From Candidatus Palauibacter scopulicola (lineage in GTDB: Bacteria > Gemmatimonadota > Gemmatimonadetes > Palauibacterales > Palauibacteraceae), in NCBI RefSeq assembly GCF_947581915.1, contig NZ_CANPWG010000066.1:1-50266 (forward strand): a stretch of 50,266 nucleotides of DNA, written 5' to 3'. Shown in pieces: positions 1,339-20,694 of the stretch. The notes under the pieces were generated by a model, which was given only the letters and a program-made list of their open reading frames with translations, was not told the origin of the DNA and did no database searches. The first letter of the stretch is position 1, and each line of letters opens with the position of its first letter. Both the position numbers and the translations under genes were made by a program.

Positions 1339-2892
1339 TCAGGCGTCGCTTGCGAGGTCGAGGAAGCCGGCTCCGACGGTGAGCGCGAGGGCGGCGAGGA
1401 AGTCGGGGAGAGGCGCCGGGTCCGCGCGCCGGTTGTAGGCCTCGTAGATGTCGGGCACCTGGTCGAGCGTTGGTGCCACTTCGACGAGTAGCCGGAGGTC
1501 GACGTTGCGCACGTAGCGCGCGCCGCCCGGCAGCCGCTCCGAGACGAGGTGGGGTTCGAGGGCGATCCGGTCTCCGGCCACGGCGGGGGCCGAGACGATC
1601 TCCAGCCCGGCGGCCGGGCGAAGGCGCACGGACGGGAGCGCGCGGATGGTCTCGTACGCCGCCCGCACCTCCTCGCTTCCGAGGAACGCCTCGGCCCGAT
1701 CCTCCGCGAGCGAGCGCTCTCCGGGCTCCAGCATCCCGGACGCTCCAGACGCTCCGGGCGCGGCCACCGGTTCCCGGATCCCGCCCCCCGCCGCGCGCGC
1801 GGCGTCGAGCCGGGCCTCCCAGAAGGGGTGGTCGTTCGCGGCCGCGGCCTGCTCGAGGAAGGGGACGGACAGCGCCCGGTAGGTGCGGTACACCTCGCGT
1901 TCCCGGTCGTCGTACAACTCGCACGCGGGGCCGGCCATGGCGTCGTCCTCGAGCCCCGTGTGCGCCACGATCGCGGCGAGCCAGGCGGAGGCGAGCGCCT
2001 TCTTGACGCCGTACGAGGAGAGGGGGTCGATGAAGGAGCCGGCGTCGCCGACGAGGAGCAGGCCCGGCCGGCCATGCAGGGTCGCGCCGTAGAGCGACGC
2101 GGGGCATGCCCGCACGGGCCCTTGCAGCCGGCCGCCCTCGAGGCGCCGCCCGAGCCGCGCCGCCTTGGCCAGTTCGGCGCGCCACATGCCGTCGAGGCCC
2201 CGTTCGCGCGCCAGGTGCGTGCGGCGCGGGTCGACCATCGCCGTGACGCAGCGGGTACGCGGCGAGGTCGGCACCGACCAGGCCCACCCGTCGCGGTAGC
2301 TCTCGATCAGCGTACAGCCGGGGTCCGGTGGAGCGTGGCCGCGGTTCGGGGTCCAGCGGCCGACGAGCGCGAGCGTGGCGATCCCGCGTTCGCGCGTCCG
2401 GAGCCCGCGCCGGGCGAGCACCCCGGCCCGTCCGGAGGCGTCGAGCACCCAGCGCCCCCGGTAGCGCGCGCCCGAGGTGCCCACGCGCCAGCCATCCGGC
2501 TCGGCGGCCGTCGCCACCACCGGCCCCTCCGCCACCAGGCGCGCCCCCGCCTCGCGCGCCACCCCCTGGAAGGCGGCCTCCAGCGCCGCCCGCTCCGCAT
2601 GGAAACCGCGCTCGGGCGCCCCGAACCGCTCGTCCCGCCGCGGCTCGCCGGCCCACCACACGGTGTTGCCCTCGTTCGGCACGAGGCCCGCCGCGTCCAG
2701 GGCGTCCAGCGCGCCCACGCGTTCGAGGAGCTTCCGCGCCGAGCCGGGGATGGATTCGGCGAGCCATTTCGCCGGCGGCGCAGGCCGCGTGATCAGCGCG
2801 ACATCGTGCCCGCGCCGCGCCAGCGAAGCCGCGGCCGCGCAGCCCGCCGGCCCGCCGCCGACGATCAGGACATCAAAGAAGGTGTTTGTCAG
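1339..2892 (-). CDS. FAD-dependent oxidoreductase, halogenase-like
   Basis: About 517 residues with an N-terminal FAD-binding Rossmann motif (DVLIVGGGPAGCAAAA, near residues 8-22), a second FAD motif (LLLVGDAGSFIDPLSSYGV) in the middle third, and WAWSVP near residue 203, which fits the WxWxxP signature of flavin-dependent halogenases. The family also includes monooxygenases and geranylgeranyl-reductase-like enzymes, so the substrate is unknown. The only canonical start, GTG at 2718, would delete the Rossmann motif. Between the in-frame stop of the upstream gene (2899-2901) and that motif there is no ATG, GTG or TTG, so I place the start at CTG 2892. It follows the DUF1554 gene by six bases and is probably translationally coupled to it. 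Confidence 0.75.
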   Translation of the reverse strand: MTNTFFDVLIVGGGPAGCAAAASLARRGHDVALITRPAPPAKWLAESIPGSARKLLERVGALDALDAAGLVPNEGNTVWWAGEPRRDERFGAPERGFHAERAALEAAFQGVAREAGARLVAEGPVVATAAEPDGWRVGTSGARYRGRWVLDASGRAGVLARRGLRTRERGIATLALVGRWTPNRGHAPPDPGCTLIESYRDGWAWSVPTSPRTRCVTAMVDPRRTHLARERGLDGMWRAELAKAARLGRRLEGGRLQGPVRACPASLYGATLHGRPGLLLVGDAGSFIDPLSSYGVKKALASAWLAAIVAHTGLEDDAMAGPACELYDDREREVYRTYRALSVPFLEQAAAANDHPFWEARLDAARAAGGGIREPVAAPGASGASGMLEPGERSLAEDRAEAFLGSEEVRAAYETIRALPSVRLRPAAGLEIVSAPAVAGDRIALEPHLVSERLPGGARYVRNVDLRLLVEVAPTLDQVPDIYEAYNRRADPAPLPDFLAALALTVGAGFLDLASDA

Positions 2893-13541: not shown

Positions 13542-13698
13542 GTCGATCTCTCTCCTCTCCGATGGTTCTCTCGGCCGCAGGACGCCCGTAGAATACTCCC
13601 CGTCCGATTCGCGTTTAGTCGGGGGCCCGGTCTGAAAGCCGACCGCCCCGATCTCTACTGACCCCGCAACATACCGTGGGTGCCGCCCCGCGCGTCAC

Positions 13699-13711
13699 GG
13701 AGGGACCTCTG
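13699..13711 (+). promoter_or_regulatory. Shine-Dalgarno sequence pointing to a CTG start
   Basis: GGAGGGA (13699-13705) lies four to five bases before CTG 13709, in frame with the PhoX-like gene. The in-frame GTG at 13676 has no such sequence in front of it. Confidence 0.5.
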
Positions 13712-15082
13712 AACAATATCGACCGACGAGACTTCGTGCGCCGCGCCGGACGCTGGGCCGGGACCGCCGCGCTCGCGCCCTCGCTCGCGGGTCTCGCGGC
13801 GCGCGCCCGGCCGGCGGCCGCGTCCACGCGCGGGACGGCTCGCGGATCCGCCGCATATGGACCCCTGCGCCCTGCGGGTCCGGAACTCGCGCTCCCCGAA
13901 GGGTTCTCCTACGCCCTCCTCAGCGTGGAGGGCCGCCCGATGTCCGATGGCCGGCCCACGCCCCGCGCGCACGACGGCATGGGGCTCTTTCCGGTGAGCG
14001 ACGACGTCGTCCGCCTGGTCCGAAACCATGAGGATCAGGACCCGCCCGGCCTCGCGGTCCCGCTCGTGTCCCCCGAACTGGCGTACGATCCCCTCGCGGG
14101 CGGCGGCACGACAACGCTGGAGGTCCGGATCGAGGCGGATGGGCGTGCGGTCCTCGTGCGCGACTTCGTGAGCGCGGGGGGGACGATGATCAACTGCGCC
14201 GGGGGGACGACGCCGTGGCGCAGTTGGCTGACGTGCGAGGAGACGACCTTCGGACAGGGGCGCGGCTGGACCGTGCCGCACGGGTACGTGTTCGAGGTCC
14301 CCGCCGATGCGGACGAGCCGGTCCGGGCCGAGCCGCTGCGGGACATGGGACGGTTCACGCACGAGGCCATCGCGGTGGACCCCGCGACGGGGTTCGTCTA
14401 CGAGACGGAGGACTACAACCGCCGCTCCGGCTTCTATCGCTTTCGGCCGCATACGCCCGGCGTCCTCCGGGACGGGGGCGCGCTGGAAATGCTCGCCGTG
14501 CGGGGGGAGCCGCAGGTGGATCTCCGCACCGGCCAGCGGCCGGGCGAGTGGCGCGGGGTCGAATGGGTGCCGATCGAGAACCCCGACCCGCCCGAGGCCG
14601 AGCGCAACGCGACCACGGTGTGGATGGAGGGGTTCGAGGCGGGCGGGGCCCGGTTCTCCCGGCTCGAGGGCTGCTGGTACGCGGACCGGAGCATCTACTT
14701 CCATGCGACGAACGGTGGCGACACCCAACTGGGCCAGGTGTGGCGGTACGTGCCGGACGAGGAGGCGCTCGCCCTCGTCTTCGAGTCGCCCTCGGAGGAG
14801 GTGCTCTCCGGCCCGGACAACATCACGGTGAGTCCCCGCGGCGGCATCCTCATCTGCGAGGACAACTCGGGCGAGACGCACCTCCACGGGTTGTCGCCCG
14901 AGGGGGAGATCTTTCCCTTCGCCCGGAATATCCTGAACGCGCGCGAGTTCGCGGGCGCGTGCTTCAGTCCCGATGGACGGACGTTGTTCATCAACCTCCA
15001 GGGCGACACGATCTCGATGGGCCCCGGGAATCTCGGCTACACGTTCGCCATCTGGGGGCCCTGGGAGCGGGGGCCGCTCTGA
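13709..15082 (+). CDS. PhoX-like (DUF839) Tat-exported protein
   Basis: 457 residues if started at CTG 13709, 468 from GTG 13676. The start at CTG gives the typical Tat opening NNIDRRDFVRRAG (twin Arg at 6-7), a hydrophobic stretch and an Ala-rich cleavage region. The body matches PhoX/DUF839 proteins: LVRNHEDQ, NCAGGTTPWRSWLTCEE, GRFTHEAIAVDP, VYETEDYN, SGPDNITVSPRGGILICEDN and FAGACFSPDGRTLFINLQG. Known PhoX enzymes are periplasmic calcium/iron-dependent alkaline phosphatases; the conserved acidic and cysteine landmarks make phosphatase activity plausible but unproven. The gene is divergent from the plug-only gene and overlaps rlpA. Confidence 0.8.
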   Translation: MNNIDRRDFVRRAGRWAGTAALAPSLAGLAARARPAAASTRGTARGSAAYGPLRPAGPELALPEGFSYALLSVEGRPMSDGRPTPRAHDGMGLFPVSDDVVRLVRNHEDQDPPGLAVPLVSPELAYDPLAGGGTTTLEVRIEADGRAVLVRDFVSAGGTMINCAGGTTPWRSWLTCEETTFGQGRGWTVPHGYVFEVPADADEPVRAEPLRDMGRFTHEAIAVDPATGFVYETEDYNRRSGFYRFRPHTPGVLRDGGALEMLAVRGEPQVDLRTGQRPGEWRGVEWVPIENPDPPEAERNATTVWMEGFEAGGARFSRLEGCWYADRSIYFHATNGGDTQLGQVWRYVPDEEALALVFESPSEEVLSGPDNITVSPRGGILICEDNSGETHLHGLSPEGEIFPFARNILNAREFAGACFSPDGRTLFINLQGDTISMGPGNLGYTFAIWGPWERGPL

Positions 15083-15735
15083 GCCGGCGCGGGGCGGCGC
15101 TGGGCGTGGCGCTCGCCGGCGCGCTCTCCGCTCAGGCCTGCGTGTGGTCCGTCCCCCTCGCGACGACGCCGTCCGCCGGCCCGACGACGCCCGCCGACCC
15201 GTCGAGCTACGCCGTCGGCTGGACGCAGACCGGCATCGCCTCGTGGTACGGGGAGCCGTTTCACGGCCGGACCACGGCGTCCGGCAACACCTACGACATG
15301 GATGCGATCTCCGCCGCCCACCAGACGATCCCGTTCGGGACCCGGATCCGCGTGGACAACCTCGACAACGGGCGCTCCATCGACCTCGACGTGACCGACC
15401 GCGGCCCCTTCGTGGCCGGCCGCATCCTGGACCTGTCCCGGGGGGCGGCGAGGGAGCTCGAGATGATCGGGCCCGGTACGGCCCGCGTGCGGATCACCGT
15501 CATCGGGACGGCTACCCCGGTCACCGCGCGCGGCGGCTGCGTCGTCGTCCAGGTCGCCTCCTTTCGCGAGCGCGGGAACGCCGAGGCGAAGCGGGACGAA
15601 CTCGTGCGGGCGGGGTTCGAAGCCTCGATCGAGCCGTACGAAAACATGTACCGCGTCGTGGCCGGCCCCTTCGCGGATGAGCCGGCGGCCGGCCGCGCCC
15701 GCGAAACGCTGGGCGGGTTCCTGCGCCGCTGCTGA
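15079..15735 (+). CDS. rlpA: RlpA-like septal lytic transglycosylase, SPOR domain
   Basis: 218 residues: a lipoprotein-type signal (MSRRGAALGVALAG, Cys21), a double-psi beta-barrel RlpA domain (about 50-145) with GIASWYGEPFHGRTTASGN, AAHQTIPFGT and DVTDRGPF (D107), and a C-terminal SPOR domain (about 150-218; VVQVASFRERGNAEAKRDEL) that binds denuded septal peptidoglycan. By family it is a murein lytic transglycosylase acting in cell separation. The start is CTG 15079, overlapping the PhoX-like stop as CTGA; the first canonical in-frame codon, GTG 15106, would remove the arginines of the signal peptide. Confidence 0.82.
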   Translation: MSRRGAALGVALAGALSAQACVWSVPLATTPSAGPTTPADPSSYAVGWTQTGIASWYGEPFHGRTTASGNTYDMDAISAAHQTIPFGTRIRVDNLDNGRSIDLDVTDRGPFVAGRILDLSRGAARELEMIGPGTARVRITVIGTATPVTARGGCVVVQVASFRERGNAEAKRDELVRAGFEASIEPYENMYRVVAGPFADEPAAGRARETLGGFLRRC

Positions 15736-20113: not shown

Positions 20114-20683
20114 TCAGGTCGCCCCCGCGGCCACGGCCGCCCTCAGGTCGCTCGCCGTATAGAGGACCATGGTCCGCAGACCCGCCCCCTCCAGCGTGGC
20201 TTTCCCCCCCTCCTCGCGGTCCACGAGGCCGAGTACCCCGAGCACCTCGCCGCGGGCCCGATTCACCGCCTCGACGGCCTGGAAGGCGGACCCGCCGGTC
20301 GTGATCACGTCCTCCACGACGACGACCCGCGCGCCGGGCTCGAAGCAGCCCTCGATCAACTGTCCCTTGCCGTGTCGCTTGGCGCGCTTGCGGACCGAGA
20401 ACGCGTGGATCGGGTCCCCCGCGCGCCAACTGGCGGCGGCGATGGCGTAGGCCAGCGGGTCCGCGCCCATCGTGAGGCCGCCGACCGCATCCGGCCGCAG
20501 TCCGGCGTCCCGGATGGTCGCGAGGCCGACCTCGCCCATCAGCACCTGGCCGTGCGCGTGCATGGTCGAGGTCCGGCAGTCGATGTAATAGTCGCTCCGG
20601 GCGCCGGAGGCGAGCACGAAATCCCCGAGCCGGAACGAGCGCTCGGCGAGCAGGTTCAGAAGTCTCGTATGGGCGGAACTCAG
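20114..20683 (-). CDS. pyrE: Orotate phosphoribosyltransferase
   Basis: 189 residues. PyrE converts orotate and PRPP to orotidine 5'-phosphate in pyrimidine synthesis. Landmarks: TRLLNLLAERSFRLGDF at the N-terminus, SGARSDYYIDCR, a basic flexible loop RKRAKRHGKG, and the PRPP-binding motif VVVVEDVITTGGSA (E124, D125). The only canonical in-frame start is GTG 20617, which would remove 22 conserved N-terminal residues. CTG 20683 lies five bases after a perfect AGGAGG, and the only in-frame codons upstream back to the fur stop are sense codons without ATG, GTG or TTG. I therefore start it at CTG. It follows fur by 27 bp. Confidence 0.86.
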   Translation of the reverse strand: MSSAHTRLLNLLAERSFRLGDFVLASGARSDYYIDCRTSTMHAHGQVLMGEVGLATIRDAGLRPDAVGGLTMGADPLAYAIAAASWRAGDPIHAFSVRKRAKRHGKGQLIEGCFEPGARVVVVEDVITTGGSAFQAVEAVNRARGEVLGVLGLVDREEGGKATLEGAGLRTMVLYTASDLRAAVAAGAT

Positions 20684-20688
20684 CGGAA

Positions 20689-20694
20689 CCTCCT
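20689..20694 (-). promoter_or_regulatory. Consensus Shine-Dalgarno sequence before CTG of pyrE
   Basis: AGGAGG on the minus strand, five bases from CTG 20683. It is the best ribosome-binding sequence in the fur-pyrE junction and decides the pyrE start. Confidence 0.7.

Follow-up and report, generated by a model that had tools for sequence, protein, structure and literature searches.

A probable CTG start codon for rlpA at its overlap with phoX, and further conserved CTG starts in Candidatus Palauibacter

The rlpA gene of Candidatus Palauibacter scopulicola probably starts at a CTG codon, most likely CTG 15079, which overlaps the stop codon of the preceding phoX gene. The reading that we hold to be likely is that rlpA is translated from this CUG after termination on phoX, and that it would be one case of a recurrent, lineage-conserved CUG initiation found across the genus. 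CUG initiation itself is already known; what appears to be new is that a single genus has kept CTG starts in several of its genes. The junction is located in a contig stretch of 50,266 nucleotides (the window). The source genus is an uncultured member of the Gemmatimonadota represented by sponge and marine MAGs, and the order that contains it has been described (PMC10469786). Its close relatives include Ca. Palauibacter denitrificans, Ca. P. rhopaloidicola and Gemmatimonadales/Gemmatimonadetes MAGs.

The phoX-rlpA junction

The initial annotation had described a phoX-like gene and an rlpA gene joined by a CTGA overlap, and both the gene identities and the overlap were confirmed. The upstream product matches the PhoX family (PF05787) with 255 bits against a cut-off of 24, and no NCBIfam match was obtained for it in the profile search. 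The downstream product matches DPBB_1 (PF03330) with 82 bits, SPOR (PF05036) with 49 bits and the rlpA model TIGR00413 with 142 bits, where the cut-off is 82. By its DPBB and SPOR domains and its signal this product is assigned to the RlpA family lipoproteins, with a predicted lytic transglycosylase activity at the septum. The final PhoX codon is CTC 15077-15079 followed by the stop TGA 15080-15082, and CTG 15079-15081 lies in the rlpA frame, which ends with a stop at 15733-15735. Stop and start share bases in the NTGA register on the same strand, both in the window and in 13 species. The features are listed in Table 1.

Table 1. Features of the phoX-rlpA junction and of other putative CTG-start genes; positions refer to the window unless a contig is named
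Feature	Position	Strand	Remarks
phoX (PhoX family, PF05787), upstream gene	13676..15082	+	Last codons CCG CTC TGA; profile match, 255 bits
Rival rlpA start, codon -9, inside phoX	15052..15054	+	CTG, but TTG in G015
Rival rlpA start, codon -6, inside phoX	15061..15063	+	CTG in 10 species, GTG in 2, TTG in 1
GGGAG, Shine-Dalgarno-like	15063..15067	+	11 nt before rlpA CTG; also encodes conserved PhoX Trp-Glu; sequence inspection
CTGA overlap, putative rlpA start CTG and phoX stop TGA	15079..15082	+	Identical in 13/13 same-genus species
rlpA (DPBB + SPOR; septal ring lytic transglycosylase RlpA family)	15079..15735	+	218 aa from CTG; profile matches
GTG, first canonical in-frame rlpA start; rejected	15106..15108	+	GGG in G007 and G014; very short uncharged signal
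Lipobox Cys codon (L-S-A-Q-A-C)	15139..15141	+	Residue 21 from CTG, 12 from GTG 15106; sequence
QhpG-like FAD monooxygenase, putative start CTG 2892-2890	1339..2892	-	6 nt after upstream TGA (2899-2901)
pyrE (orotate phosphoribosyltransferase, TIGR00336), putative start CTG 20683-20681	20114..20683	-	
AGGAGG Shine-Dalgarno	20689..20694	-	5 nt before pyrE CTG
pyrH candidate	G000:C8 reverse index 111475	-	
recX candidate	G000:C8 reverse index 45683	-	
alpha/beta hydrolase lipoprotein candidate	G000:C54 reverse index 30762	-	

Read from CTG 15079, the protein begins as (M)SRRGAALGVALAGALSAQA-C21. The first canonical codon in the frame, GTG 15106-15108, lies nine codons downstream, and the protein read from it begins as (M)ALAGALSAQA-C12, a segment that lacks both Lys and Arg. 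It had been claimed that the CTG reading provides a proper lipoprotein signal while the GTG reading leaves a signal without basic residues, and both statements were borne out. From CTG, at least one Arg in the N-terminus and a Cys at residue 20 or 21 were observed in every species. The lipobox has the form L-S-[AG]-Q-A-C, where the Gln at position -2 is unusual. By the PROSITE PS00013 rule, a lipoprotein signal that combines a basic n-region with the Cys is obtained only from CTG or from farther upstream (SRR...LSAQAC).

The junction tetranucleotide was found to be CTGA in all 13 same-genus species with a full junction. The initial annotation had expected ATGA, GTGA or TTGA at this place in relatives; none was observed, and while its codon prediction failed, its proposal of initiation at CTG stands, most likely at 15079. 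Four-nucleotide overlaps of the ordinary kinds are common in the genus, with 59 ATGA, 56 GTGA and 10 TTGA counted over 872 kb in eight contig stretches from seven species. The invariance of CTGA is weak evidence because the last Leu codon of PhoX together with TGA forces most of the tetranucleotide: the Leu codon contributes the C as its third base and the stop supplies the TG, so that CTGA arises cheaply by chance. In the same 13 species, 15 of the 29 conserved Leu columns of PhoX were invariant at codon position 3. As about half of these third bases are invariant, CTGA conservation was rejected as proof of a CTG start. What rises above chance is that the rlpA frame is coding from the CTG onwards and that some relatives have no usable canonical start.

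RlpA lipoproteins (TIGR00413) and PhoX proteins (PF05787) are known families which the two products resemble in the RlpA domains, the lipobox and the PhoX profile match. Unlike in known cases, phoX and rlpA are joined here by a four-nucleotide overlap, which was found only in the 13 species of Candidatus Palauibacter. In the distant genus member G013 the two genes are adjacent with a gap between them; in the rest of the family, phoX does not adjoin rlpA in the contig stretches examined. The phoX gene of G013 ends in TTATGA (L014, G013:C11, 1290-1500), where the frame opened by the ATG stops after 7 codons; rlpA is found farther on, without an obvious canonical start near its signal peptide.

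Competing starts and coupling to phoX

A start at GTG 15106 would give RlpA a short uncharged signal and would make CTGA a chance feature of the Leu and stop codons of PhoX. This codon is the first canonical one downstream and is present in 11 of the 13 species, and the reading gains from the small weight that CTGA conservation carries. However, G007 and G014 have GGG at this codon, and in G014 no in-frame ATG, GTG or TTG was found from codon -153 (inside phoX) to codon +21, past the lipobox Cys. A canonical start in G014 would therefore leave RlpA without an export signal. The Cys as residue 12 with no basic residue before it also speaks against GTG 15106, as do the codons that precede it, which vary like coding sequence. 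The residues from CTG to GTG are conserved as S-[R/P]-R-x-x-[A/G]-[L/F]-G, and G009 carries a 3-base in-frame deletion in this interval. Few changes underlie the pN/pS values of 0.54 for codons 2-9, 0.43 for codons 10-21 and 0.32 for the domains, and likewise the 2, 3 and 6 variable sites between CTG and GTG at codon positions 1, 2 and 3; the interval evolves like weakly constrained coding sequence. Relatives that conserve only the sequence from GTG 15106 onwards, named beforehand as the pattern that would contradict a CTG start, were not observed, as the upstream residues are conserved and the GTG has been lost twice. Conservation, as judged from these alignments, weighs against GTG 15106 and we consider a start there very unlikely.

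The start might instead lie inside phoX at codon -6 (15061) or -9 (15052), which would still be a CTG in most species. Codon -6 is NTG throughout (Table 1) and the signal peptide that it would produce, MGAGAALSRRGAALGV...C27, would remain plausible; both rival codons would yield a signal longer than that from CTG 15079 yet still acceptable. The NTG at both positions is found in every species because it overlaps conserved PhoX Trp codons, and the changes at -6 track third-base variation of a PhoX Pro codon. In addition, neither position has a Shine-Dalgarno motif at a proper distance, and initiation would have to take place within a translated gene instead of at its terminus. We regard these starts as quite unlikely, and CTG 15079 is preferred because it is located at the stop, like the ATGA, GTGA and TTGA starts of the genus. 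Production of RlpA as a fusion, through a -1 frameshift or stop readthrough from phoX, or its initiation at a canonical codon far upstream, would make use of an rlpA frame that extends upstream without a stop for 138 to 350 codons wherever phoX is intact. Yet the canonical codons lie deep in phoX (-153 and -172 being the closest that are shared) with none conserved near the junction, no slippery site is conserved beyond the coding needs of PhoX, and the signal peptide of a fusion would sit inside a large protein. Furthermore, rlpA is still constrained in G001 and G016, where it follows a broken phoX, and such routes seem extremely improbable.

For the preferred start at CTG 15079, we propose that the ribosome that ends phoX would stand on CUGA and restart at the overlapping CUG. 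The ordinary initiator tRNA (anticodon CAU) would read this CUG with a mismatch at the first codon position, and the product would be an fMet-SRR... lipoprotein precursor cleaved before Cys21. Three parts of this scheme are inferred: that ribosomes re-initiate after phoX, which would fit the four-base overlap, that fMet is used, and why CUG is tolerated. The GGGAG that precedes the CTG has a longer spacing than usual and is also fixed by the Trp-Glu of PhoX. The initiator tRNA gene was observed to have the anticodon CAU, a GGG/CCC anticodon stem and a U1-U72 mismatch, and no initiator tRNA with the anticodon CAG was found among the tRNAs read. Loss of IF3 was rejected as an explanation since infC is present in 24 of the 24 genomes searched; a conserved noncanonical start and the presence of IF3 are both found for the CTG genes in the genus.

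A duplication in G001 and G016 bears on the coupling. In these genomes the first copy pairs an intact phoX with an rlpA stub of 55 codons, and the second a broken phoX with the intact rlpA. The rlpA behind the broken phoX shows pN/pS of 0.27 to 0.35 against its neighbours, and a strict dependence of rlpA on an intact phoX is therefore unlikely. The duplicated region was read in G001 (L032, G001:C33, 7041-15730) and in G016 (L033, G016:C32); its second phoX is broken by deletions and frameshifts, and the two junction copies within each genome share private changes, a pattern of concerted evolution.

The junction resembles the four-nucleotide overlap pairs that undergo termination-reinitiation (PMC6728339, PMC10666635) in that the genes are co-directional and their start and stop overlap in the same register. 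It differs from those pairs (ATGA, TGATG) in that the start here would be CTG and the coupling is a proposal; a term search of one of these papers (PMC6728339) returned no CUG or CTG. The phoX-rlpA pair is thus a variant rather than a plain member of this class, because its start would be CTG in 13 of 13 species and not ATG, GTG or TTG.

CTG starts in other genes of the genus

We surveyed CTG-start genes with a simple home-made codon-usage gene finder on contig stretches, followed by ortholog comparison. In four genes beyond rlpA (pyrE, a QhpG-like gene, an MPG glycosylase gene and an FG-GAP lipoprotein gene) no canonical start fits and a CTG is well placed. Sequencing error is an unlikely explanation, given that the MAGs were produced by several independent projects. 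Comparison of the sequences shows that several genes require a noncanonical start and that a CTG codon occupies the right place. The CUG would be used with a Shine-Dalgarno motif in pyrE and the FG-GAP lipoprotein gene, and at or just after an upstream stop in rlpA and the MPG glycosylase and QhpG-like genes.

For pyrE, the start regions in relatives were read from DNA. The CTG lies behind AGGAGG or GGAGG in 15 of the 16 genus species read; G005 has its CTG shifted downstream by a single codon and could also use a canonical start, a GTG located three codons upstream. In other genera of the family and order, pyrE starts with ATG, or in a few cases GTG, within 1-3 codons of the CTG site. PyrE read from CTG, with the N-terminal sequence SSAHTR, gains 12 bits against TIGR00336 over the reading from the first canonical start (GTG 20617), and SSAHTRLLNLLAER is included only when the protein is read from CTG. 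This CTG has its own Shine-Dalgarno motif and no overlap with an upstream stop; CUG would here be used with a Shine-Dalgarno motif as well, and not only at stops.

The QhpG-like gene runs for 58 codons in the window without a canonical start. From CTG, the flavoprotein reads (M)TNTFFDVLIVGGGPAGC and its N-terminal peptide is TNTFFDVLIVGGGPAGCAAAASLAR. In nine species an in-frame TGA or TAA directly precedes the start region, and more than 50 codons of the protein pass before a canonical codon appears. Four species that differ by a one-base shift have a CTGA overlap instead, and the distant G013 has an ATG start. The best match of the window flavoprotein is QhpG, with 229 bits just under the 240-bit cut-off; QhpG is the flavin monooxygenase of quinohemoprotein amine dehydrogenase maturation. 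The MPG glycosylase gene shows CTGA in all 12 species read, and in G014 an in-frame stop is found at codon -9 with the first canonical codon, GTG +25, inside the conserved domain. The FG-GAP lipoprotein gene has ggggagggtggCTGA in 10 species (ggggagggtggCTGAACAC) with the signal MNTRTLLAAALLVSAC; G006 and G010 carry an ATG close to this position.

Further CTGA candidates in the own genome without a canonical start before conserved sequence are pyrH, recX and an alpha/beta hydrolase lipoprotein gene (Table 1), and one more CTG candidate is an ORF on C54. The CTGA of a YwaF-like gene in G046 resembles a frameshift and was set aside. Other unusual codons were also observed. On G000:C8 reverse (L345-L354), index 28446, the only nearby start of a lipoprotein gene is an ATA in an ATAG overlap (MAARGKTRSRLLPAAACAAGLFAGC), and a canonical start is absent for 95 codons; the MPG gene of G005 (L187) may use an ATA in an ATAA overlap. 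On G000:C54 reverse (L363-L369), at index ~70,000 of the reverse complement of the 140-kb stretch, an in-frame TGA occurs in NACRY-TGA-IVHHGEGLRRLL. It takes the place of the second Cys in an AhpD-like CxxC motif and is possibly a selenocysteine codon.

Frequency of CTG starts and start-codon selection

Eight of 685 predicted genes in 863 kb of the own genome pass the scan for a missing canonical start with a CTG candidate, rlpA being additional, so that about 1% of sampled genes are CTG-start candidates. The same kind of scan gave 1 of 455 genes in three other Gemmatimonadota (Fisher p = 0.09), where the two scans used slightly different gene cut-offs, matches were sorted by eye and the partly masked G037 was left uncounted. 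The enrichment is only suggestive. In an annotation-free bulk count, CTG occurs behind Shine-Dalgarno motifs 21 times against 17.4 expected, no clear excess, and CTC 10 times against 19.8 expected. As the bulk excess of CTG is not significant, its use would be confined to a small minority; CTG starts in this genus appear well supported and conserved, in a small minority of genes.

CUG is reported to form 0.024% of bacterial initiation codons (PMC11497404), and figures of this kind rest on annotation, which seldom allows CTG. In E. coli, CUG starts are inefficient at 0.86% of AUG (PMC11497404), and for AUG to CUG a count of 2 of 61,358 is given (PMC5622118). The starts described here resemble this rare bacterial CUG initiation (PMC11497404, PMC5622118) in the codon and, presumably, in the use of fMet-tRNA with a first-position mismatch. 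They differ from the scattered single genes reported in that the CTG is conserved at several loci in 10 to 15 species. A likeness is also seen to infC (ATT) and Streptomyces sigR (GTC) (PMC5472188), which have conserved noncanonical operon starts missed by gene callers limited to ATG, GTG and TTG. Unlike infC and sigR, another codon is involved here in several unrelated genes including pyrE, and repression by IF3 is a feature of infC and sigR.

The infC of Palauibacter differs from the ATT-started genes, as its start is apparently, and most likely, GTG (L255-L262) versus ATT in order-level relatives (L244, L247, L243). The ATT start of E. coli infC lets IF3 regulate itself (PMC5472188), and a genus whose infC starts with GTG may have lost this usual form of control. 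The difference hints at relaxed start selection but does not amount to evidence for it. It is conceivable, if rather doubtful, that start selection in Palauibacter is relaxed through a changed initiation machinery, with CUG (occasionally AUA or AUC) serving 1-2% of genes, essential ones among them, as a routine fourth start; one candidate cause would be an infC that starts with GUG and is no longer autoregulated through a noncanonical codon.

The overlap was observed correctly at the outset, its interpretation as a CTG start is probably right and the coupling to phoX is a proposal. CUG differs from AUG at the first base only, as GUG and UUG do, and the reason for its near-avoidance is unclear (PMC11497404). 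The Palauibacter genes would allow the features that make CUG usable to be tested in a natural setting, with stop overlap in one gene and a strong Shine-Dalgarno motif in another. Gene callers restricted to ATG, GTG and TTG would truncate or miss proteins in Palauibacter: PyrE would lose its first 22 residues, the QhpG-like enzyme the start of its FAD-binding region and RlpA its export signal.
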